A stretch of DNA of 64,000 nt from Paralichthys olivaceus (Eukaryota > Chordata > Actinopteri > Pleuronectiformes > Paralichthyidae). The stretch lies in contig NC_091107.1 of assembly GCF_024713975.1 (NCBI RefSeq), forward strand, positions 17,301,001-17,365,000, read 5' to 3'. The notes below the pieces were generated by a model, which was given only the letters and a program-made list of their open reading frames with translations, was not told the DNA's origin and did not search any database. Made by a program: the position numbers and the translations under genes. This document shows, in pieces, positions 36,335 to 58,662 of this stretch (the stretch's first letter is position 1; each line of letters starts with the position of its first letter).

Positions 36335-39300
36335 TTAACCCTGCTCCAGACTCTCTGTCACTTGCACAGCGGAGTACGTGGCTGCAGACGCCTGTCGAGT
36401 GAAGAAGGACGCAGCTCTTTTTGGCTTCAAGCGTTTGATTTCTTTTCCTGAAAGACAAACATGGACAAATATTGAATAATTCCTCCAGCTGAAGTCACCA
36501 CAGAGAGATTGTCATGGTTTAGAAGTAGAAGTAGCTACTACTAAATGCAACCATTAGACTCACCAGTGTCCACATAGCTGATAGTGTTGAGCGAATGGAC
36601 CCGACTGCACACAACACTGTTTTGCCTGTGTAGCATCCCACGCCGTCCTCCACGTCCGTTCTTGTTGCTGCCATCTTGTCCCGCTTGTTGCGGAGACTGA
36701 CTCACCTCGCCGTCCATTTCAGCTGCAGCTGCACCCTCAGACGCAGACTTCAGCTCCACGCAGAACTCGATGAAGCCGCTCATCAGCTCTGCCTGGTTCC
36801 AGACAAAAAAACAAAAACAAATCATTAAGTCTGATTCTAAGAGGTAGATGCAATACACAGCTGCACTTAGGCTTCTTGATGGTCCGTTTATGGCCTGAGC
36901 CACAGGCATACAAATGTCACATTGGCAGCCTCGGATTAGGGCCAAGTGTGATTATTTATGACTGCATCCACCATTATGTAACATCTCTTCAGCATCTGTT
37001 GGCTCAGACAGTCTTTTTCATTCATTCAATCATTGACCAGGGATTATATAGAAAAGAGAACAGAAAATTGTTTGATCTCTTTTTTGGTTTCAACCCAGTT
37101 TCAAGTGTTATGCTTCTCTAAGAACAAATGGGCACAGCAGCTGCACCTGATGCTCAAAGTCTTAAAAACACCAGGTGCAGGGTTCTCTTCAGAGATCGCT
37201 GCATATTCCCTCTACTTGTTGAAAACATTTGAAGTGAAGCACGCATAAGAGGACTGCATCTGTCCCCCTACCCAGCAGCAAGACCATTTAAAATTGATGT
37301 TTAAAATACGGCACAGAAGGTGGAGGTCAGGACAGGTGTGACCCAAAAAAGAAAAAAACAACTCCAACATGTAAATGAGCTACTGTACAGATGTTAAATA
37401 TAATCATGTCTAGGGATGAAACAGTTTCCTGTTTTATGGTACACCGTGGTTAAATTCCTGACAGTTTGTTGAACTGTTTCAATCTTAAATTACTTTAATT
37501 ACAATGGTTGGTGCTGTAAAAGCATGAGCTGCTAGTGATCTGGATGTAGCTTGCAACTGCTAGCATCCACTGTCTCCAAATTGCTTGAATTTAACGAACG
37601 CTGATATTTTGTACTATCAAACATTTGCAGTTCTGCATTTAAAAAAATGTCTTGTCCACTCTTCTAGTTTTGTGTTATTTTATCAGATTTGTTTACATGT
37701 GGTTGTATTGTTCTTACATGCACATACTTTGTTCATGAGTGTGTTTCCATTCACTTTTTGCATGTACTTATTTAAGGTGTCATTTGGGCCTTCATTCAGT
37801 TTGTATATCAGCTCATTTTAAAAATACTGCGTTAATACTGATGAATCAGTGTTAAATCCTCACTCCATTTCATATCAGATGATTTCTGAATTTCCTTTCA
37901 CTACCACTGTCTTACTTGTTTTGAATAGATCTTTAGCAGTTTGTTGACTGGAGTTCCGTCTTCCTCTCCATCAAACTCCAGCCACAGAATGTGTGAGTCC
38001 CCCTCCTCCTCTGGGTAGCTGTGGTCCCACGAGAGCTGGCTGAAACGCAGGCCGAGCAGAACATGCTACAAGAAAACATGAAGAGATATCAGCATTGGTT
38101 TCATGAGGAGAAATGTGAAATACTTTCCACATTTCTGCAGCGTGCACAATGGTTATTCAAGTTTGCATACTGCCTTTTTTTTTACCAAGCTGTTCAAAGA
38201 AAACCTCAGTGCTCACCTTCTCTTTGACATCCATCACATAAACCCCCTCCAGGCAAATCCCAACATTGACAGCTTTGCGCTTTCCCCTTTGGAGGATCCC
38301 TTGCGCTGGTTTGTCAATCTCACCAAAGAAGAAACCACACCTGTTTTTGCAGGTTGAAAAATGAGAACATATTTATCATTGCCTCTGAGTTTTGAGTAGA
38401 AAGAGCAGCAATGGCTTGTTACAAAAATTCTTACCCATAATAAGGCAGAGTGTGACATGTGCTGAGGTACTGGTGTAGGAGCTGTGTGGGCTCAGGAGGG
38501 TTTGCAGCAGATGTGCAGATCTTTTTGTACTCCTCCAACAGGTTCTGCTCCAACCCTGCCAGACGACTCGACTTCCCTCTCAGAGTGGAGAGTAAACCTC
38601 CGCTCCCCATGGTGACGTGTGCAGGCAGATAAGAGGACAGCTTCTTCTCCCTGTGGAATGTGGAAAATTTGTATTAGAAATTTCGTGCATCTTATCTGTG
38701 GAAATCTGGTCTCAATATTATATTCAATCAATAATTCATTTTCTAACATTTCCTGCTTAATGCCATGTTGTCATTTGCTTCTGTCGTGTCCTCATGATAA
38801 ACAGGAAGCAGAATGCAACACTTAGTCTTATGCCAGAGTGACTGTGCATTCCAATAGATTTCTCTATTGTCTGATTTCCTCATTCACAAGCATCGCAAAT
38901 CTTAAATGCTACAGATTCTTTCCACTCCTGAATCACCGTGTTGACATATATTAATAAGTAAACATAAATTACATACATATTTTAATTCCATGCTCCTTTC
39001 ACTTAAATGTTGTGTTTGATGTGTTTAAAGAGGAAGCCCACAATCAAACACATGTCTCACGATATTATTAACTCCTCTCCTCAGTTACTACCACACAGAT
39101 TCTGTTCTTCAGCGTGATAAAGACAGCAACTAAAAAATACCTAGAGATGCTCTGAAAGGAACTTCTGGGTCAAAATCTACAACAAGTTATTATAACACAA
39201 GGAATGATTCACTCTGTAGATGTCAAGGTTATCTGATCTGGCTCCATTTAGGGTGTTGAACATCATGTAATCTATGTGTACTTCAAAAAGTGTTCAATGT

Positions 39301-42246
39301 GCACAGGTAAATGAAAGAAAACAAGACAGAATCTTTGGATTTTAGGATAAAGCACTAATATTTCTTTTGATGCAGCTCAGACCAAATTTACCTACACCTT
39401 TTTTTCTTTAATGATGATTTAACAACAAATAACGTAATACTGTGAGAAATAAACACCACTGACACAAACTACGATGTTTGATGTTAGAACACTGCATACA
39501 CACAAGAGACTTCCTCAAAAATATCTATTCACTTATCTGTTACTAAAAGCAGGCATCCTGCGATGTGTGTTGTAAGTACCTAAAACAAGAACGGTGACTA
39601 CACTACTTTAAAATGTCTCTATTATATGTACAGAGTTTTATAATACTTGTCAAGTACCTTCTGTGTAATTCTGAATCAAGCCTTTTGAGACTTGATTCAG
39701 AATTACACAGAAGGTACTTGACAAGTATTATAAAGCAAAACAAAAAACAATGATCATCCCACTCTAATCAAAACCGTTGACCTCTTGATATTCAATGAAT
39801 GAATGTTCATCAAATACCAACAATCTGTTCTTGATTGCACTGACGCACTCAAAGCTGTGAAATCAACCAACTGCCAATTATATGTCAGTTTAAGGACATG
39901 ATTTTGTTTTGTTCTTTTTACAATGTCTTCAAATTATGAAGGAGTGTGAACAAAAAAACATGTTCAATCTGGATAAAACTAGTAAGCTTTGAGGTGGTGG
40001 TAAGTACATTTTGTTACATTTGGACAAAGCCAGACTAACAGTCATCCCTTACTTTAGTCTTTATGTGAACTAAGCTACTGTGAACTGCACATCCATCTCC
40101 AGGCTGTAGCCTTATATCGAGAAAACTAAGAGTCAACAGTTGGACCATCAATAGAAAACAAAAATTCAGGCAATTCAGAATATAATCATATTTTTCAAAC
40201 AATCTTTCTCACTCACCTTACAGTAGCAGTAAACTGTTGGCCGTCTAGACCAGTTCCCTCTTCAAGAGCAAGAGACAAGGCTCCAAGACTCATCCAGTGC
40301 TCGGGATCACAGGGGTATCTACCTGAGAGGATGTTGTTCCTGGCCTCTTCGTACAAAAGTTTCAAGACTACCTCATCATTGATCTGCTCAGGAGGGACAC
40401 ATCACGAAAATTATCCAACAGTTACTGTATCAGGACAGGCAGTTTCTTTTATCTTAAAACATTGAAATTGCCTCTAATGATCTACTCAGATGATTAAATA
40501 ATTAGTTTTATTTGCTGCCTCATGTGAAGCACTTTGTTAATTTGGGTTTTGTTGAGTACTGATAAATTATAAAACAGAACAAAACATCATTACCCTACTG
40601 AAGAAGATGAAATGGCAGTTCTAATTTACAAGAAAACCCATTCTGATTACTGCACTAATGACTCTCAGACGATTACCAATTATCTTTATTAAAGTCAACT
40701 TATAATTTTAAGAGTCAAAAGTTTTGGTAAAACTGTACTCTTCGTACAAAATGATGGAAAACGGTGTCATCTCAATTTGCTCATATCTAAGATTAATCGA
40801 TATTCAGGATTGGAGTCAGTGGTACCTGCAGCTCTCTTGGTTTAGGATAAAACACATTCCGTCTGTATTGGAGATACGGCTCATCTGAGGAAAAAGCAGA
40901 GAACAACCATGCATTATGGTTCCATGTGTTTCCATATCATGCAAATGTGTGAAATTCAGTCTCATCGCTCGGAGTGGAGGAGTGAGGGTATGGAGACAAA
41001 CACTGCAGTAAATCAGGGGCTAACATCAAATCTGGTTCTAAAGCCCCCTCCAACCCACTCTGCACTGACTAACAGTTCTGCACTGTGCGTGGGTGGTATC
41101 CCTACCTACTCCACAAAAACACATAACAGCATTTAAATGATTATGCAAGGCATTTGTTCTCTTTTTTGTTTGATTAGTGCTAAGCTGTCACTTTGTCACC
41201 AGTTCTTTGGTAACACTGGACGAAAAGCACATAACGTGGTGGGCTGTTCCGCTTTGTCTGGCAAAGTAATGAGCAACAACAACAGACTTTCACTTCACCA
41301 AAAGTCCACTGTGGGGGACAATTTTGATTATTTGAGAATTAGTGCACTAAACAACAGTTTCAGTTTGTAAAAAATAAAAATAAAACCTCAGCTCAGTCTT
41401 GTCCCAGTTAATGTGACATAACGTTGTATTCTCTACCTCATTCAGCAAATAGACTTCCATGCTTTGATTTGAGAAAACATTAAAGGTTGGTGCATTAAAC
41501 AAACATATGCTGACCATCTCTCACCTTGTGAAATGTCTTCCTGTGAGGCCTCAGTGAAGCGATACAGCAGGTCTTGCCACTGCCGACACAGCTTGTATGG
41601 TTGATGTCTCACTTTTAACTGCAATTCTTAAGAGTAAGGAAGAGATCAAATGTGATACACAGATACTTTATGCATGTTTCCCTGATTTGATTCTAGCGTG
41701 ATATTTAAACCACTTTCCATTCCAGGGAAGTTTGAATTTTGTAACCCACAGTAAATCAAACCTGTATCATTTAAGCAACTTAATAAGACAGAAGCATCCA
41801 CATACACATCAACATTCTCATAATGTCAATGCCTATAATTTGATCAGAAGAGAATTGTAGCAGTGGAGTGTGTGGGGGGGCTAAAGGTCTTACCGAGCAG
41901 TGGAGAACATAACCAGAAGGCAAAAGCATCATGTGCAGACTCAGGAATATTGAGAGCCTCATGAACACTTCGGCCCAGCTCCTGCACAGTGACACTGCCG
42001 AGCCCTTCTACAGATAAGTGGACTGCACTCTCACCAAACAGGTATATGAGCACATCTTGAGCTGTGTGAACAATCACAAATATATCAAATTAAACAAAAA
42101 ATACATAAAAACAAAGGGGTCATTGTTACATATTATATTATTTGCTCCACCGTACCCCGGGAAAGAGTTGCTGAAGAAGCAACGCTTCCTCTTTGTGACA
42201 GATCATCTGATGAATCTGGAGGAAAACTGCAGTCATCCCCTTCCAT
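36335..42246 (-). CDS. frmd8: FERM domain-containing protein 8 (iTAP)
   Basis: Ten coding exons in transcript order: 42246-42156, 42061-41894, 41626-41525, 40884-40826, 40383-40217, 38650-38435, 38340-38217, 38065-37916, 36792-36564 and 36447-36335. 1419 nt, 472 aa (human 464), phases consistent. Known: FRMD8 binds the cytoplasmic tail of iRhom1/2 and protects the iRhom-ADAM17 sheddase complex from lysosomal loss. Seen: FERM F1 start [13 protein letters not shown] at about residue 32; [77 protein letters not shown]; and the basic tail [14 protein letters not shown] ending ESLEQG, the same last residues as human. The ATG at 42246 lies in exon 2, after a clear acceptor at 42254. The middle of the C-terminal linker (Gly/Arg/Asn-rich) is poorly conserved. 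Confidence 0.96.
39637..39734. repeat. Perfect inverted repeat, 44-bp arms and 10-base spacer
   Basis: Left arm 39637-39680 (TTTATAATACTTGTCAAGTA...) is the exact reverse complement of right arm 39691-39734. The spacer is CCTTTTGAGA. It lies in the 1.57-kb frmd8 intron between exons ending 38650 and starting 40217. Transcribed from either strand it would form a fully paired hairpin of about 98 nt. Confidence 0.97.
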
Positions 42247-46004: not shown

Positions 46005-48533
46005 TTAGGCCGTGGCCGCGGGGGTCGCTCCTTCTGCAGTAGTGCCCTCTTCCACCTGGTTTGTGAGCAGGAAGAACTTCAGCACGGGGTTCATGTACTC
46101 CATGAAGGTGTCTTTCACGCTTTTCTCCAGCAGGTAGCCTTCCGTCTCAACTTCTGTGTTTTCCTGCCCTGCCACTGCCTCCATGGCGGTCTGCAGGAAC
46201 CGCAAGCTCACCAGCACAGAAGCCTGGGAAGGAGGAAGGTGGAGAAATGTTAGATGTCGAGCATAGATATTATGGCATCCATAATATCTATGCTATCTAT
46301 AACCTCTTTGCAGCTCTACCAATCCATAAAAGATCCATTTTATGGCATCTTCGCACCACCAACCCTGCCTGGAGTCACTGTGGGACTGTGGGACCACTGT
46401 AATTGTTCTCATGCTGTACCTGTAAGATAAAGACTGACAGCACTCCAGCCCCAATGGTGTTCATCAGACCCATATAGTATTTGACCAGGGCCTCTCTGCA
46501 ACCTCGGAGGTAGATGTTGAGCTCCTCCGTCTGGTATTCGTAGTTGTAGTGAGCCGAGTTGTTGGTGAGCTGATACTGGATGCACGGCCGCGGAGAGCTG
46601 GGGTTGCAGCAACTGAATGGAACACCGTCTACCAAGTAACGGCCATCCACGTTGCTCTTAATGCGGCTAATTAACCAAAGGAAACGTGTATCAGATAAGA
46701 GATGTTTTCACCAGTAAACACAGTATTGTTACTGAATATCGATGTGAAATTCTCTCCCAACTATTTTCCACTACTTACTCTTTCACTTCCTTAGAGCTGA
46801 AATCCAGGTAGCGGTTGCTGATCCATTGAACCTCGAACCAGTCCCTGAAGTCACTGTTTCCACAACACTGAAACTCCATCTGCAGCCGATCGATGTTCTG
46901 CTTCTGGAAGCAGCGGCCCGGGGTGTCTGTGTCCTTGTAGAAACGGATGCCGTTCTTCAGGCCGACCTTCAGGGAAGACTCCAGGCTGCCCTTCATTGCG
47001 TAGCTCATGATGACGGCTAGCAGCATGAGGACAGTGAAGAAACAGGAGATGGCGAAGTAGGGCTTCAAGAAGTTCTTCCAGCGAGGGAATCGTCCGGCAT
47101 CCAGGGCATCTTGACAGATCTTTGAAGCAAAGTAGTTGATCCCCAAGGAGGCCAGACCAACTATCATCAGGGTGTTGGGCACAACATGAATGTCTGCGTT
47201 ATCCATCACCTGTAATTAAGTCACATGGAAATACATACAATACTTTCAAATGTTTTTGTATTTTTCATAGAAACGGTAAAAGTCCTAAATACACACAATG
47301 CATAATGTAATACTGTATGATAATTTGCATGAATCATTTTTTTATCACGATTACAGTCTGTCCCATATACTCATAATAAACACCACCTCAGTTTAATCAG
47401 AGTGTGTTGAGCAATAAATATACATAAACCGATAGATATGTCAACACAGTTTTCTTCTTTCTTAAATGTGCTGTTGCTCTGTCATATTATACAAGGGTAT
47501 ATGAGCTCTTATATATTGTGCAAATGTGTTTTCAGGTTTTATTTCCTCTTTTCACGATTGCGGCACTGAAAGAGACAACATGTATTTATAATATTTAACA
47601 GGAAATGTGTTAGCTCCAGGAGTAGCATCCTCTGTGTGTATTTTTGTGTGTGCGTGTGCAAGTATGTGTTTTAGGGTCACATATTTATTTAATCACATGC
47701 TGAACACAATACAAATATTTCCAATATAATATTGAAATACATAAACATAAGCTTAAACATATTTTGATAATATTGAAAAGGTATAATGAGAGTCTTCAGA
47801 ACATTGGATTAGGATGATTAAGACTGACAGAGCCTGGTTTATTAAATGATGACTCATCATGGGCTAAAGTGGGTCACAGTTGTGTCCAGTTCACAAGGAC
47901 ATTCCTTTATCTTCTCAAGAAAGTCAATTCCATTTTCAAATTTTCTTTTTAAAAGTTTGACAGTTTGTAGGACAGCTACAGTTGACTGTCCTTAGATGTA
48001 AATATTTAGTGTACAATTTCCAGTTTAGAATCTATTTCATGTGTTATCGACCCTCAGAGGGCTTGACAATTGTTTCTATATTTCGTTTTTACCCCATCGA
48101 TGGTGATATGTTGTGGTTTCTCTCTTGTGACAAATGTACTTATTGTAAGTCGCTTTGGACAAAAGCGTCTGCTTAATGCCCTAAATGTAAATGTATCAGT
48201 TTTTTTCTCAATCACAGGTATGAACACAGTTTGTCCACAAAATCCAATGTACTGTAAAGTCTCCATTACACCCATTTACAATGACACAAGTTTATAATCA
48301 TAGCAATTTAAAATTAGGAATAGCAAAACTTTGGATATATCAACAAAGCTTTAAAATCCTGGCATTTAAATTTCAAAAAGTACCTCTGCCCGTCTGCGGA
48401 GCTCCGTCTTAAGGAGGCAGCCCAGGGTGAAGGTCATGGCCCCGGCCACTGTGGCACTCCAGGAGAGGAGCCACAGTCCCTGGGCCAGCTTCACCCTTTT
48501 CTCAAAGGGGAACTTCATCTTCATCACCACCAT
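46005..48533 (-). CDS. Photoreceptor outer-segment tetraspanin, peripherin-2/ROM1 family
   Basis: Four coding exons: 48533-48384, 47209-46779, 46666-46420 and 46223-46005; 1047 nt, 348 aa (PRPH2 346). Known: PRPH2 and ROM1 oligomerise to shape rod and cone disc rims. Seen: N-terminal [14 protein letters not shown]; four hydrophobic segments; the large loop with [54 protein letters not shown] and glycosylation sequon NNS; tail GYLLEKSV and NQVEEG. All loop cysteines look present. Loop sequence and sequon resemble PRPH2, whereas mammalian ROM1 lacks the sequon. Its 11q13-type neighbourhood would favour ROM1 or an extra fish paralogue ('outer segment membrane glycoprotein 2'), so I give no symbol. 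An intron after residue 50 is additional to the mammalian three-exon structure. Three nearby Met codons precede KFPFEKR; the first is taken as start. Confidence 0.93.
46260..46294. repeat. Perfect short inverted repeat, 16-bp arms
   Basis: Arms 46260-46275 and 46279-46294 (AGCATAGATATTATGG and its complement) with a 3-base spacer. It is in the last intron of the peripherin-like gene, 37 bases below the last exon's acceptor side. Confidence 0.9.
47806..47820 (+). promoter_or_regulatory. CRX/OTX-like motif pair
   Basis: GGATTAGGATGATTA holds GGATTA plus a related GATTA. It lies in intron 1 of a photoreceptor-type gene. Short motifs of this kind also occur by chance. Confidence 0.2.
48140..48195 (+). 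repeat. Teleost SINE/LINE tail fragment
   Basis: 'gtaagtcgctttggacaaaa', 'gcgtctgcttaatgccctaa' and 'atgtaaatgta': a very common teleost retroposon tail, in intron 1 of the peripherin-like gene. A second copy is at 58610-58660. Confidence 0.7.
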
Positions 48534-50559
48534 GGTTGCAGCGAGGGGCTCCGGGTCTCACCAAGGGAATAGGGGAAGGAGAGCGACGAGGCGACGAGGG
48601 ACGATGCTGTGCTTTGTCTGTGAGAGAGGAGCAGAGGTGAGAGGCAGAACTCCAAATGCTCAGAGAGGAAGATGACCAAACTGTACTAAAACTCTGAATT
48701 CAGAAAAGTTGTGGAAACACAGCAGGCGTCATTAAAAACTAACCCTAATAACTTTTAAAAAGGTCAAGAGAAATTACGACAAAATCCTCAGAGAAAACAT
48801 TTATAAAACCTTACATCCCAATGAGAGCGGCTCCAACTAAACAAATGTTAGAGCATCTAAGTTCACCTTATTTGATTCCCCAGAAAGAGCTGAAAAAAGT
48901 CCAGTTACCTCCACCGACCACTATGTACCGTCCAGTGTGCCACACAGTGGATTTGGCACACTGGATTTGGCAAAACCTGAATGTCGGGAGTGTCTTACCT
49001 CTAATGCCTACCTATCCTATTAAAGTGGTCTGTGAATCCAGGCCATTGTCAGCTCAGCACCCATCACTCACACAGAGGGACACAGATGACAAATCTAATT
49101 GAACCTGACAGGGAGGTGGATATTATAATAATGTGTAACAGTAACACATATCCTCATGACACAACCCCATAAGCACATGTAAACTGGAATAAATAAAGAC
49201 AACAGGACAAGTAGCAGTGTTTCAATGAATCAAGAAGTTTGATAGATGCCAGAATCATTTCTTGTCTTTCATTTGTTTTGCTTCCTGTGATGATGTGACT
49301 AAAGGGAGTGTTGAAAGTTGAAAGAATATTAACGTCTACTGCCAGGGAATATTATTTACATTGAGGACATGTTTCTGCTCAACAGCAGCAGAAAGGAATG
49401 TGTAGTGGCAGCGAGAGTAAGTGTTGATTTTCTTATAATCCCCACAAGGACGTCAGAGGGTTAAATATAACTTTATCTCAACATGTTGATCATACGGTTG
49501 CCATGCAGGCAGAAAGATCCTCACACTGATTATGGTGCTGCTTTTGCTTTTGTGTTTGTTTGATACAAACCCACTTTGCATTTTCCCCAATGAAGTCAGT
49601 GGTTGTTTCTGTGCTCAGTAATTATTTATTAGACCGCTCAAGGTCTAGTGATATTGATCCACTTGGTAGTTTTATCTCTACTGTAAATGACAAAAATACA
49701 AATATCCACAGCAAAAAGTAGAAGGTGTATAAATACTTTTAAAAAAGCTTAACTAAGCAGGGAGCTGAGAAACCTGAATTAAAGCTGGTCATGACTTCTG
49801 TCTCACCCAGCTACAATCTCCATCACACTTTTTTCAGAAATTAAACAAACGTAGCAATTGTTTCTTCGTTTAGTTTATTAGCTTTTATATGGACAGAGTT
49901 ACATGGGTTACATTTACACAAGCTTTTGGAATTTGTTTATGCAAGCATTCTTTTGGCATGTTAGTTATTGCAACCAGATAAATGAATTGTTTTACACAAA
50001 GACGGGACCATAAATTAAGCTAAGACAACATTATTACTTATTTTGTGTATATATATGAAATAGTGTACAACCATACTTTTACAACTGGGAAATAGATGAA
50101 CATGAAACAAATATTTTAGAGTGTGTTTAGATTTGAATGTTCAGCATTAGACGATGCCTTCAAGGTCTAGGACCATTATACAATACATCCATGTTTCACC
50201 CAGTAAAGCAAAAACACAAACAATAACAATTGCATATATATATATGTGGATTAATACAACAAAACTACATACTAATGTTCACATTTTACCATTAAATTAG
50301 TAAATCCAAGGTGCAGAGGAAAAACAGAAAAATAGTGTTTATGTTTAAAGACATATAATATTCATGTAGCCTCCAGTACCACTTAGCAGATGTTGGTTGT
50401 ATTGTTTTTTATTAGAAACAAAACCAGGGAGTCTTAGAGTTTTGCAGTTACAGTTTCTTCAAAACACATATATTAGTGAGTCAAACTTAAGGAGCTAAAT
50501 TGAACTTTCCCTGGAAACTAACCTGACAAAATTAAGATTTCATACGCCTCATGTTACTG
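48534..50559. other. Intergenic region upstream of the peripherin-like gene
   Basis: No exon recognised. It contains the 5' flank of the peripherin-like gene and the 3' UTR of the coiled-coil gene, whose likely poly(A) signal (minus AATAAA) is at 50408-50413. Confidence 0.5.
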
Positions 50560-53500
50560 TCACAGCTTAGTACGCTCTCCTTTCAACACCTCGTCTGGAA
50601 TCCCTCCCATCCAGCCGTGCACCTCCGCCCTGCCCTGACCTTTGCCTTCACTGGCCTGTGATTCACGTATGAAGTGGTTGAGCATCTGCTCAGCCGACTG
50701 CAGGCTGGCCAGGCTACTATTTGCGTCTGACATCCTGCTCTCCGCCAGCATCCCGATAGCTGCCTCCCTGTCACTGTTGGTTCTCCAATGATGAATGATC
50801 TCATTATCTAAATCCCCGATAACTTCTTCCCCGGGGTGGTGGAGGTCCATCATGGCCTCGGTGCCCCTCAGCTCCTTTAGCATGTGGTGCCGTGCCAGAG
50901 GAATTTCCTCCAGGCTGGCTGACCGGATCAGGATGGAGGAGCCAAGGTTTGGACTTGAGGTGATCCTGTAATTGCCCTCAGCTGTCATGCTGTCAGAAAG
51001 ATTCTTGAAGCCAGAAGAGCAGACATTGCTTTGCGGTGCTGGTAAAATCTCATTATGGATTTTGAACTGCCGCAGTTGTGCAGAGTGCAGACTGACAGTT
51101 TCCTCACCCCCTGACTCGCTGTCTTTGTCCACATCTGCTTCTTGGTGTCTCCACGCATGATTTCTATTCGATCCTGTCAGTACAAATCGTGGGATCTCTT
51201 CCCCAATCTCTGACCAGTCAGACTCCTCCTCCTCTGGAACTGACCCTAGAGACTGCTCCTGCCCGCCAGCGTTAGTGTTGCCGTAGTTATGGCTGTCCAT
51301 GAACTGAGCCGGAGGGGGAGCGATGGGCAGAACCACCTGATTAATGGCATTGTCTGACTGAAAGTGAATGTTGGTTTTGTGCAGAACAGATGTTGCCTGT
51401 AAAGGTCATAAATGGGTTAAATGATGTAAAGTCCAATGAGATATTTATGAGTGATTAAAGAAAAAAGCTGATAAATGTACATTTAAGAACATTAGATAAT
51501 TTTACAGAGGAATTTTCAGTGTGTTTTTTTCTGCTTTCACCCACCACTGAATATGAATGTGTTTGTACAGTCACTGTCTGCCCAGAGCTCAAAGGTCAAG
51601 ATCTTACTTTGAATGTTTCCACACTGTTGCCAAATTTTGCATCAGTGAGCTGCTCCGTTAAAGCTGAGATACGCTGGTTCAACCTCTCACGTTCTCCTTC
51701 CATATTATGAGCCTAAGACAGGAAGTACAGCAGATGAACTTAGTCAGTGGCGAAGATTTCAATAAATCAGGGGCCATAAAGGGGCACATGTGTCAAAACG
51801 TATTTCTATATGTTCATGTTTTAATAAATAAGGAATTTATGTTTTTGTAGCTTCTGATCCAGAAAAACTAGTCTCACCACTGAGTTAAGCTTTTGCTGCA
51901 GGAGATGATTGGTCTGTTGTGTGGAGGAGCAGCTGTCATGAAGTCTAAAATAAGGCAAAGACAGAAAGAGGGAAAAAGTAAAGCAGGTTACAAGAATAGA
52001 ATATATTACAATCTAAATACAATATGTCTCACATGGTATAAGTTTAAGTATCAGTTGCAGATCATCGTCATAACTCTAAACCTGCATCCTTTACCTCTTA
52101 AACCTATCTGTGAGGCTGCTGAGCTCCATACGTGTCTTCTGAAGCTCTGCCTCCAAAATCTTTTGGCTGCTCACAAACTCCTCTCCCAAACACTCCATCC
52201 TCACTGCTGTCTTCAGCAAATTTTGATGCAGACCTTCATTCTTCTCCTGTAGTACCCTGTCAAAAACAGAAAAAGTATGACAATGTTTTGGATGTGAAAT
52301 TACACATATCAGTGTTTGCCATGGTATTTACATGCAAATTAATGGCCGAGTGGGTTTACCAGTTAATATAATCAACAGAGTTATGTCATACTTACATTAT
52401 TCTACCCAGCTCATGTGCCTTTTCCTGCATTAAAGAAAATAATAAATAATATTTATGGTGCACAACAAATAAAATGAAAAAGCATTCTTTTGACGACCAT
52501 TATTCAATAACCCTTAGTTTGTGCATGTAACTTATCTATTGTTCTGTAATAACTGAGTTAGTCACATGGTAACACGCACACTGGTGCTCAAATCAATACA
52601 CCATCAAATGAGTGGAACATAATTACATAACATGTTAATTAAGCAAGTAAAACACAGACAACTATTGACCTGTCTATAATTTCTTATTGAACATACAGTA
52701 ACAGTGGATTTCAGAAAGAGTCTTGAATATAATGCCATACCTTATGTGCTGATGAGTGAGAGAAACTTGTCCGTTCCTCCTCCAGGCTGGAGGGGCTCCG
52801 AGTGTTCCTGGCTGAGTCTGCTTTAGTTGCAAGAGACTCTGGCTTCCTGTATGAAGGGGGGCTGTCAGCAGAATGGCCCTTTAGATGAGTGTGGTGGTCG
52901 TCATGGCCATCATGGTCGTGGTCGTTGTTTTTGGAGTATGATTTGTTGGGATGTGACTCATGGGGATCTTCATGGTGATTTTGATGGGATTCAGTGTGGT
53001 GGTTTCCATGGTGATGTGAATGGGATTCAGTGAGGTGGTCTTCATGGTGATGCAGATGTGAGCCACCATGGTGGTCTCTATGGTGATGCTGATGGCCTGA
53101 ACTTTGTTGGACACCATGATGATGCTGATGGCTTGAACTGTGGTGGTCTCCATGGTGATTGTGATGGCCAGAGCTGTGTTGCTGAGTAAGGCCATGGTGA
53201 TGGTGATGTGGTGGGCTGTGGTCGTCTCCATGGTGATGTTGATGTTTTGTGCTATGGTCGTCTCCATGGTGATGTTGATGTTTTGGGCTATGGTCGTCTC
53301 CATGGTGATGTTGATGTTTTGGGCTGTGGTCGTCTCCATGGTGATGTGGATGTTTTGGGCTGTGGTCGTCTCCATGGTGATGATGATGTTTTGGGCTGTG
53401 GTCGTCTCCATGGTGATGTGGATGTTTTGGGCTGTGGTCGTCTCCATGGTGATGATGATGTTTTGGGCTGTGGTCATCTCCATGGTGATGTTGATGTTTT

Positions 53501-55657
53501 GGGCTGTGGTCGTCTCCATGGTGATGTTGATGTTTTGGGCTGTGGTCATCTCCATGTTGATGTTTTGGGCTGTGGTCGTCTCCATGGTGATGATGTTTTG
53601 GGTTGTGATGATCCCTGTGGTCATTGGATGATAGGCTGTGGTGTCTGTGTTGATGTGGTGTAGTAGGACGTTCATGATCTGGGTGGTTGCTGTGGTGGTG
53701 GTGACCTGAATTGTGGTCTCCATGGTCATGTGTTGGGGTGTGGCGACCTTCATGATGAGGACTTGTGTGGAGGGGGTCTTCATGATGATAATGATGAGTT
53801 GTATTATGGTTATCTTCATGGTGAGGAGCATGACCATGGTGGTCTCCATGGTGATGGTGTGGACCGTGGCCATGGTGCTCCCCATGGTGATAATGACTGG
53901 CCGGGCCATGATGGCCTCCATGATGATGGTGATGATGAGTTGCACTGTGGTGCTGTCCATGGTGGAGAGTTGGGCTGTAGCAATCTCCATGATGATGGTC
54001 TGCGTAGTGATGGTGATGTGATGGGCTGTGGTGGCCTCTGTGGGGCTGAAAAGTGTCATGGTGTTCATCGTGGTGATAGGTTGGGCTATGGTGATCGCTA
54101 TGGTGATCGTCATGATGATGATGATGATGACTGCGGTGTCCATGGTAATGATGATGACTTGTGTTGTGACGGTCTCTGTGGTGATGCTGAGGACTTGGGC
54201 TCCGGGATTCTTCATAGTGATGATGATGATGATGACCGGAAGTGTGGTCTCCTTGGTGACGTTGGTGGGATTTATAAGAAGAAGAGCAGACGTGATGCTG
54301 AGGAGTCTGTGAGTGAGGTTTTTTCACACAGCTAACGTTAGTGCAGCTTCTGGGCCTGTGATGCATGTGATTGGGGGAATCTGCAGAATTATAAGTGTGG
54401 TGGTGTTGGAACGACTTAGAGTTTGAGAGACGAGTGGAGTGCTGACTGTTGTGGGAGTGTCTGCTGGAGGTAACTGAGTCTGCACTGGTGGGCCGACTCC
54501 TCTGCTGCCTGTGTTTCTCAGTGCTGCCGTCTATCTTACTGGCTCTGGTGGAGGAGGCCTGCCGAGGACTGCAGGGTCTTTGAGCATCTGTGACCCCAAG
54601 GGTGGTGAGTCTCATCGGGCTGAGCACCTGTCGAGTGATCTCATTCAGAAAGGCAGAGAACTTCATTTTTTCCTTCATTAAATTCTTCTTGGCAATTTCA
54701 TCCATACTTCCATGACCCTCACTGTCTTTAGGTCCAGTGAGAGCCTCCATTGATTTGGACTTGCGGAAACTTCTGTCATTTCCAGAGCCTCTTGCAGCCT
54801 TCTGTGTTTTGCTGTGGGTAGATCTGATGCGGGAGGACTTGCCTTTCTCCCGTTTCTGTTTAGCTGATTTCCTCTTTTGATCACCCCGTCCATCTATCAA
54901 CGGGGCTGTGTCGTCTCCTTCTTCAGAATACCTGCGTTTCCCTGAAATGTCAGTACAGGACTGTGAGTGCTGAGGCTTCGTCTGTGGATCTTTGTCCCAA
55001 CGCTCACTGCTGGTGTCAGAGGACAGGCTGGAGGAAGATGCTGAGGAGGAGGAAGAGAGGGAAGAAGAGGAGAAGGAGGAAGGGGAGGACGATGTTGATG
55101 AAGAGGAAGAGGAGGAGGAGTTTGAGGAGGAGCTAGTGGAGGAACTCAGGGAGGTTTCTGTGAGAGAAACACGGTGGTGGTTTTGCTTGTGATGGTTATG
55201 GTGAGAGGGAGGACGATGAGTCTGGTCATTGACACTTGGACGTCGATTGTCGGGGGCGTGATCGCTGAAAATGCTGTCCTCTGCTGTTGAATGGCTGCTA
55301 GTTCAGACAGAAAGCAAGGGCGTTAATGTCACACAGGATTCTCTGCTACTTTAAACACAGGATTGTTACACCTCTTTCTCTACTGAAACACTTAGATGCA
55401 GACTTTTTACAAATGTAAGTAGAGTAGTAATATTGCCTGACTTACTCTTGGCTATTGGTGTCATCTGACTGGTGTGACTTTTGCTCGTAGTGGTGCTGAT
55501 GGTGGCCTCGATTTTGGTGATGGTTCTTCGTTGGTTGAGATTTTGAGTTTGCAGTCTTTCCACGCTTGTGGTCTTTTTCTTTATGGTCGCACATTTCTGT
55601 CAGCTGAGAGTCGTCCTCAGAAACTGGTACAATATTGATCCCTGGTGAAATATTTCC
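50560..55657 (-). CDS. Histidine-rich coiled-coil protein related to TJAP1/BEGAIN (5' end unresolved)
   Basis: Exons, transcript order: 55657-55446, 55297-52741 (2557 nt), 52424-52396, 52256-52095, 51944-51878, 51712-51608 and 51396-50560; 3969 nt in one frame, 1322 residues to TGA. No start codon is assigned: the first exon opens at an acceptor in phase 0; an ATG just inside the intron (55663) is a fallback. Seen, numbering from GNISPG: poly-Ser tract about 125-170; basic stretch and KFSAFLNEITRQVLSP at 283-298; His-rich region about 350-900; coiled coil 924-1045 (VLQEKNEGLHQNLL, FKRLHDSCSSTQQTNHLLQQ, ERERLNQRISALTEQLTDAK); acidic PEEEESDWSEIGEE in the 278-residue tail. The coiled coil aligns gaplessly to what I recall of TJAP1 (LLQEENEELRRR... 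FRRLQNSYTASQRTNQELED ... LLDAK). TJAP1 acts at tight junctions/Golgi and BEGAIN at synapses; the role here is unknown. Confidence 0.85.
53180..53622 (-). repeat. 36-bp coding minisatellite (GDDHSPKHxHHH)
   Basis: About eleven units of 36 bp (one of 30) inside the giant exon of the coiled-coil gene. Each encodes GDDHSPKH plus Q/H/P and three His. Unit sequence 'ccatggtgatgttgatgttt' followed by 'tgggctgtggtcgtct' on the plus strand. The variable residue runs Q,Q,Q,H,P,H,P,Q,Q,Q, then a divergent unit, so an H/P pair has itself been duplicated. Confidence 0.95.
55020..55160 (-). repeat. Coding poly-Ser low-complexity tract (GGA/GAA-rich on plus strand)
   Basis: The plus strand is a purine-rich GAGGA repeat. 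The minus strand reads as nearly continuous Ser codons in frame with the coiled-coil gene, so it is coding low complexity rather than an intron. Confidence 0.85.
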
Positions 55658-58231: not shown

Positions 58232-58607
58232 AATAAGCTAGATTTAAATTCTATATATATAAATTATAATATAATATATAAAAAAGCTGAGGCCTCTACA
58301 GTATCAGTCACAAACACACACAAACCCTTCAACTCTATGTGAGCTTGTATTTACTGCAGGTGAAATAAGCTCCAAACATGATCTTTGAAGGTAAATGTTT
58401 ATTAAGAGAGCAACTGAGTAGTTAGTTGCCATTACCATGCTTTTACGTATTGTGTGAAAAATGATTAATTCATAAATAAATTCATAAATCTTTCTTTGAA
58501 TAATTTACAATTTACTTTACCTGTGCACAGCAGATGATTCATTGACTGAAAAATATTGTTGTTGTTGTTGTTGTTGTTCTGGGTTTGGTTCCTCATGGTT
58601 GATGCAC

Positions 58608-58662
58608 TAATTGTAAGTCACTTTGGATAAAAGCGTCAACTAAATGAAATGTAATGTAAAAT
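58608..58662 (+). repeat. Teleost SINE/LINE tail fragment, second copy
   Basis: 'ttgtaagtcactttggataa', 'aagcgtcaactaaatgaaat' and 'gtaatgta', preceded by a (GTT)n run at 58558-58577. Confidence 0.7.

Follow-up and report, generated by a model that had tools for sequence, protein, structure and literature searches.

The stretch of DNA analysed here (the window) covers 64,000 nucleotides of Paralichthys olivaceus (C15:17301001-17365000; the genome searched comprises 588 Mb in 25 contigs), and its minus strand carries, from 55657 to 50560, a gene whose seven exons hold a single frame of 1322 codons and a stop. We compared this C15 gene with its relatives in the same genome, namely tjap1 on contig C14, a sister gene on C9 and begain on C12, and consider it very probably a third gene of the TJAP1/BEGAIN type. 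An AG lies ahead of all seven exons and a GT behind each of the first six, so that the 1322-residue frame described in the earlier note was recovered with regular borders, although the splicing model itself is predicted from the DNA. Translation probably starts at +55594, the first in-frame methionine (residue 22, MCDHKEKD...), which would give a protein of 1301 amino acids. The exons and the features within them are:

55446-55657, minus strand: first exon seen in frame, 212 nt, AG/GT borders, holds the likely start methionine
52741-55297, minus strand: giant exon, 2557 nt, acceptor phase 2, donor phase 0
55006-55152, minus strand: serine-rich tract, from the translation
54739-54765, minus strand: conserved motif RKSKSMEAL, candidate phospho-ligand of a DLG guanylate-kinase domain
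54595-54675, minus strand: amphipathic segment KEKMKFSAFLNEITRQVLSPMRLTTLG with the stretch KFSAFLNEITRQVLSP, conserved in C14 tjap1 and the C9 gene
52936-54417, minus strand: His-rich region, residues 365-858, 196 His in 494 residues
53191-53586, minus strand: tandem array of 11 units HGDDHSPKHxHH, inside the His-rich region
52396-52424, minus strand: 29-nt exon, EKAHELGRI, phase 0 to 2
52095-52256, minus strand: coiled-coil exon, 162 nt, phase 2 to 2
51878-51944, minus strand: coiled-coil exon, 67 nt, with the QxTNxxL hinge, phase 2 to 0
51608-51712, minus strand: coiled-coil exon, 105 nt, phase 0 to 0
50560-51396, minus strand: last exon, 837 nt with stop, 278-residue tail, RSASLEEI at 50902-50925, end SAEQMLNHFI...GWMGGI

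A chance open frame was ruled out for the giant exon by dinucleotide shuffling, as none of 500 shuffles of the 2557 nt left any of the six frames open and the same was true for 2000 shuffles of its first 997 nt, which lie outside the His array. Judged by its sequence, the C15 gene is an intact protein-coding gene.

The coiled coil spans residues 924-1045, the position given before. A genome search with it returned, besides itself, one place on C14 (35%, expectation value (E) 7.6e-6). A human TJAP1 query matched C14 at four places, C12 at three, and C15 (E 0.019), C11 (E 0.18) and C19 (E 0.19) at one each, ten in all. In the C15 gene the exons measure 29/162/67/105 nt, in tjap1 29/162/67/108/84, in the C9 sister 29/129/67/108 and in begain 162/67/108/84 (an exon ahead of the 162-nt one was not sought on C12), all with identical phases, and the 67-nt exon is common to the four genes. 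The 29-nt exon reads EALTDADRI in tjap1 and DTMCDADHL on C9, with length and phase as in the C15 gene. Within the 67-nt exon lies the QxTNxxL-type hinge of the TJAP1/BEGAIN family, which is QQTNHLL in the C15 gene and QRANQDL, QRINQDL and KQANNLL in the other three.

As coiled coils can score alike by chance, the likeness might also come from convergence of heptads in a gene unrelated to TJAP1, and the lack of a Pfam Pilt match (see below) would agree with this. We regard it as extremely improbable and have rejected it, since the C15-C14 score of 194 was not reached in any of 1000 heptad-preserving shuffles (mean 42.6, z 19.8), exon lengths and phases match, and a module outside the coiled coil is common to both genes and can be aligned. 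The same kind of shuffling gave z 14.3 for C15-C9 and z 13.0 for C15-C12, each again with 0/1000.

In a tree built with FastTree on 100 resamplings, the C12 gene grouped with human BEGAIN in all 100 (73.2% identity over 112 positions), and so did the C15 and C9 genes with each other, while the attachment of the C15/C9 branch to the tjap1 and begain sequences was split 37, 35 and 28. This split would also suit a teleost duplicate of tjap1 ('tjap1b') instead of a separate ancient paralogue. However, the coiled coil of the C15 gene is only 33.9% identical to that of tjap1 and 39.4% to that of C9, whereas fish tjap1 and human TJAP1 share 61.5%; together with the neighbouring genes discussed below this makes a tjap1b unlikely. 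Because coiled-coil sequence, exon lengths and phases, and hinge all agree, we consider homology to TJAP1/BEGAIN well founded, and with the tree they bear out the third paralogue proposed in the earlier note. In the open-licence PMC literature no paper on TJAP1/BEGAIN paralogues or on a zebrafish TJAP1 duplication was found, and the two that name both TJAP1 and BEGAIN have titles on other subjects, which does not make the gene undescribed.

The C14 gene lies at about 24.713-24.722 Mb, and its giant exon begins with MTSSAPARKPYRKAPPQHRE; compared with the published residues 9-22 of human TJAP1, KPYRKAPPEHRELR (PMC10820826), this identifies it as tjap1. The N-terminal module found in the C15 gene is present here in one open frame with the TJAP1 N-terminus. 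This giant coding exon (C14:24721191-24722432, minus strand) has two phase-0 donors, one after 40 codons (24722313), ahead of the module, and one after 414 codons (24721191), past it, which predict a short and a long, module-bearing N-terminus. The short form would correspond to human TJAP1, whose N-terminus is short. Thus tjap1 shares with the C15 gene a giant exon with RKSKSxExL and KxxFSxFLDEITxQVLSP, the 29-nt exon, the 162- and 67-nt coiled-coil exons and the hinge. It differs by the Mint-binding peptide KPYRKAPPEHRE, a Pilt domain at the C-terminus and the 84-nt exon, all three of which were sought in the C15 gene and not found. The C15 gene in turn adds a His-rich expansion, whereas no array of this kind accompanies the module in the C14 exon.

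A genome search with the KFSAFLNEITRQVLSP region returned itself, C9 (47%, E 7.8e-7) and C14 (41%, E 3.3e-5), and a further place on C2 at E 0.82 that we take as chance. Alignments of the module reached z 16.1 for C15-C9, 16.8 for C15-C14 and 16.5 for C9-C14, with no score as high in 2000 shuffles. The three genes share two blocks, [IF]RKxKS[MV]E[AVL]L and K[MLV]xFS[AN]FL[ND]EITxQV[LI]SPxxLTxLG, and the counterparts of RKSKSMEAL are RKAKSMEVL on C9 and RKSKSVELL in tjap1. By its sequence the module is therefore common to the C15 gene, its C9 sister and tjap1, and old instead of new to the C15 gene. A giant exon with the module as a peculiarity of the C15 gene was refuted by its presence in C14 tjap1 and on C9. 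The earlier suggestion that no family member has this architecture is likewise not supported, as the giant exon of tjap1 carries the module and that of the C9 gene combines it with His runs and a Ser tract. The earlier note had also held that finding this His-rich exon in an already named family would count against a new paralogue; tjap1 corresponds to this description for the module but not for the His array.

The C9 sister gene (about 13558291-13566013, minus strand) has a 552-codon open frame with His runs, Ser tract and module, and a run of eight His in its first coding exon. Its giant exon has the same phases as that of the C15 gene, and it shares with the latter the 29-nt exon, a similar C-terminal end, a PRPH2/ROM1-type neighbour in matching order and the feature that no 84-nt exon was found. 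In contrast to the C15 gene it shows no tandem 12-residue His array, its coiled-coil exon is 33 nt shorter (129 nt), and it adjoins mascRNA/MALAT1 and SCYL1 where the C15 gene lies near FRMD8 and ZFPL1.

begain is located at about 12705-12717 kb on C12 and resembles the C15 gene in the 162- and 67-nt coiled-coil exons and their phases, with a third exon of 108 nt (105 nt in the C15 gene) and an additional 84-nt exon, but the module was not found nearby in the genome search at E <= 1. A single begain-like exon, YRKDCNLAAQLLQCNKSLYR (75% of 20 residues), was seen on C19:14047038-14047097 (minus strand) and is tentatively taken as a second begain copy.

The His-rich region contains the array of 11 units, in which the first unit lies 10 residues from the second and the following nine spacings are 12; Tandem Repeats Finder reports a 36-bp repeat. 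Compared with the C9 sister and tjap1, the tandem array was seen in the C15 copy alone. Pairwise differences between the nine full units were 28 synonymous to 28 non-synonymous in the coding frame, compared with 8 to 48 and 14 to 50 when the two other frames are read, which are too few to show selection. One could argue that the His-rich part is the working part of the protein, for nuclear-speckle targeting or metal binding, with a coiled coil that merely dimerises. His repeats reportedly send human proteins to nuclear speckles, the C15 product has 196 His in 494 residues and three runs of six His, and the C9 sister also has His runs. Yet neither the C14 tjap1 exon nor the C9 frame has such an array, and the array is nearly uniform and therefore young, so that we find this reading rather doubtful. 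We read the His-rich arm as a late addition, perhaps for avidity.

TJAP1 and BEGAIN are adaptors of Golgi/tight-junction and postsynaptic complexes. TJAP1 has been reported to bind ARF6 and Dlg-2/PSD93, and a peptide of it binds the phosphotyrosine-binding domain of Mint1 with a Kd of 20.9 uM (PMC10820826), and it is reported as Golgi-associated (PMC13305319). Guanylate-kinase domains of DLG bind phospho-peptides, with BEGAIN among the listed partners (PMC6989407), and their ligands form the Eukaryotic Linear Motif class LIG_DLG_GKlike_1 (PMC8728146). The C15 protein is probably an adaptor in which a short dimerising coiled coil sits between long disordered arms. RKSKS-M/V-E-x-L in the module would be phosphorylated by a basic-directed kinase and would then bind the guanylate-kinase domain of DLG-type scaffolds of the membrane-associated guanylate kinase family, the amphipathic helix KFSAFLNEITRQVLSP after the motif could bind a second partner or the membrane, the coiled coil would make the ligand bivalent, and the Ser- and His-rich arm might add weak, pH- or metal-tuned self-association. 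The motif of basic residues, Ser and hydrophobic-Glu-x-hydrophobic is present in three genes (C15, C9 and C14) and would resemble the LGN ligand RRHSMENM. As it rests on this putative likeness and on conservation, the DLG mechanism with the module as phospho-regulated ligand is a tentative proposal, well short of even odds.

Several points weigh against identity and adaptor role. The resemblance of RKSKSMEAL to the LGN ligand is itself putative, and the local C15-C14 alignment leaves the RKSKS motifs out of register, with spacers of different length. Pfam PF15453 Pilt (TJAP1) is not listed up to E 10 in either the 399-residue C-terminal part or the 201-residue module region, while TJAP1 as positive control matches it at 3.4e-77. 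The 84-nt exon of tjap1 and begain (YRKDCNLAAQLLQC...) was not found in the C15 gene or in the stretch of C9 searched; sought after the coiled coil with the consensus YRxDCNLAxQLLxCxKSxxRxHK, it gave only weak matches, at best E 0.15 in the window at 49001-51700 and E 0.059 in C9:13557001-13561000, in databases of a few kb. The N-terminal Mint-binding peptide KPYRKAPPEHRELR is absent from the 1322-residue frame, although it could lie in an upstream exon that escaped detection. Finally, the 278-residue tail matches itself alone in the genome at E <= 1, and its likeness to the C9 tail is modest (z 5.7, 1/2000 shuffles as high).

Profile searches, which had been suggested for coiled coil and module, brought no Pfam family above the cut-off: the C-terminal part and the module gave 21 and 1 sub-threshold families, and the best, DUF7867 (E 0.0011), is taken as coiled-coil noise. 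Pfam returned 0 families each for the C9 giant frame, the C9 last exon and the C14 giant exon. In the PDB the C-terminal part found no match and the module just four SNW1/Skip sequences (E 0.33 to 0.89), taken as chance. With these points considered, we give a probability of about 0.75 to a third TJAP1/BEGAIN-type protein with an adaptor role in the broad sense.

The neighbourhood of the C15 gene includes:

46008-48557, minus strand: PRPH2/ROM1-type tetraspanin (Pfam Tetraspanin; PDB 7zw1 Peripherin-2 193.5 bits, ROM1 93.5 bits)
38434-40401, minus strand: FERM-domain gene, read as FRMD8 by eye (Pfam FERM_M in two exons)

The tetraspanin is read as rom1 from its position, yet is nearer to Peripherin-2 than to ROM1 among the PDB chains. 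Further FRMD8-like exons at 41445-42089 were read by eye and have no Pfam match, and a genome search with one FRMD8 exon matched a single place, which is in the window. An ERG4/ERG24 (TM7SF2-type) gene was identified by Pfam, whereas VPS51 and ZFPL1 were read by eye. For the VPS51-like exon Pfam gives Dor1 (COG8-type) just over its cut-off, the ZFPL1-like exons have no Pfam match, and a FERM exon and a VPS51-like exon found no match in the PDB. UnaL2 LINE (long interspersed nuclear element) 3' ends flank the gene at 48133-48185 and 58600-58653 (plus strand), with 53.9 and 43.4 bits against a cut-off of 55. They are the best two of 13 rows that Rfam gave at loose scores for 30000-64000, the rest being taken as chance; at gathering scores Rfam had no match over the whole window, and a tRNA scan of the window found none.

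In order to compare the segments, 961 open reading frames of the window of at least 35 codons, minus plus-strand frames starting inside the giant exon, were searched against 118 kb of C9. Of the 23 rows that this gave at E <= 1e-3, those for five tetraspanin exons (53-81% identical) ranked highest together with module and coiled coil; the remaining rows were antisense shadows or weak and repeat-like. Against 68 kb around C14 tjap1 there were 7 rows with coiled coil and module on top. The C9 tetraspanin (about 13550026-13554917, minus strand) adjoins the sister gene, also on the minus strand, in the order and orientation seen on C15. As the PRPH2/ROM1-type gene and the third TJAP1-type gene share both, we regard C15 and C9 as duplicate segments, which the teleost genome duplication would explain most simply, although they may stem from a later segmental event. 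On C9 Pfam also identified INTS5, a GH31 gene (read as GANAB) and an LRAT-type gene (read as PLAAT). A gene at 13586637-13592125, fragments of which match Cytoplasmic export protein 1 (E 9.7e-8), was read as SCYL1, and by eye a coiled coil resembling CCDC88 was seen; neither the SCYL1-like kinase part nor the pieces of the CCDC88-like coiled coil matched a Pfam family.

The human map positions used for comparison are those of PRPH2, ROM1, TJAP1, BEGAIN, VPS51, TM7SF2, ZFPL1, INTS5, GANAB, PLAAT, CCDC88B, LRRC73, YIPF3, DLK2 and MEA1, and by them we take the neighbours on C15 and C9 to be all genes of human 11q12-13. This bears again on a tjap1b, for which the nearness of the tetraspanin to Peripherin-2 would speak, as PRPH2 and TJAP1 both lie at human 6p21.1. 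The other C15 neighbours, however, are read as 11q12-13 genes (FRMD8 and the TM7SF2-type gene, with VPS51 and ZFPL1 by eye), and it is C14 tjap1 that has neighbours of 6p21 type, with an EGF-repeat gene and a weak sub-cut-off MEA1 match by Pfam, and LRRC73 and YIPF3 by eye without Pfam match. A separate third paralogue is therefore preferred.

From the synteny of C15 and C9 a MALAT1 locus was expected between the C9 copy and SCYL1. At this place Rfam found two mascRNA-menRNA elements on the plus strand (13573777-13573834, 73.6 bits, and 13585189-13585246, 70.6 bits; cut-off 42.5). Genome-wide there are at least two matches, both on C9, a lower bound as 68 of 63921 first-look candidates were scored. 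Upstream of both elements U-rich and A-rich tracts of the MALAT1-like triple-helix type were seen by eye, and tandem repeats of about 1.93 kb lie between them. With hardly any differences between the two elements or between their upstream tracts, the pair suggests a recent tandem duplication, and judged by these elements the site looks like the MALAT1 locus of Paralichthys olivaceus.

In tetrapods FRMD8 and SCYL1 adjoin, but here they sit on different segments of the duplicated pair, and a copy of the third TJAP1-type gene lies near each of them. At human 11q13 FRMD8 adjoins SCYL1 (PMC2883590), with the order FRMD8-NEAT1-MALAT1-SCYL1 on chromosome 11 (PMC12941219). According to PMC10869381, the MALAT1 locus of ray-finned fish lacks FRMD8, which reached it by translocation in the lobe-finned line; the main text of this paper does not contain the words gar (as a whole word), bowfin, sturgeon, zebrafish, teleost or 'whole genome duplication', although supplements may name species. 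With FRMD8 near one copy and MALAT1-SCYL1 beside the other, reciprocal loss is an alternative to this translocation: a block FRMD8 - PRPH2/ROM1-type - third TJAP1-type gene - MALAT1 - SCYL1 might have existed before the duplication, with FRMD8 kept on C15, MALAT1-SCYL1 on C9, and the tetraspanin and the third TJAP1-type gene on both. We consider this possible, if somewhat short of even odds, as FRMD8 points the opposite way from what the tetrapod order would predict, human ROM1 is not known to lie close to FRMD8, and a later move of FRMD8 to C15 is conceivable. We know of no protein gene like the third TJAP1-type member between mammalian FRMD8 and MALAT1, where NEAT1 fills the slot, and a loss of the third gene in mammals and the rise of NEAT1 may therefore be linked.

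If reciprocal loss is true, it would explain why FRMD8 is missing from teleost MALAT1 loci without a lobe-finned translocation. The origin of the FRMD8-NEAT1-MALAT1-SCYL1 neighbourhood can now be tested directly in gar, bowfin and other fish that lack the teleost duplication. For the family itself, a third member and an N-terminal module that is also present in fish tjap1 would represent an overlooked part of TJAP1/BEGAIN biology.

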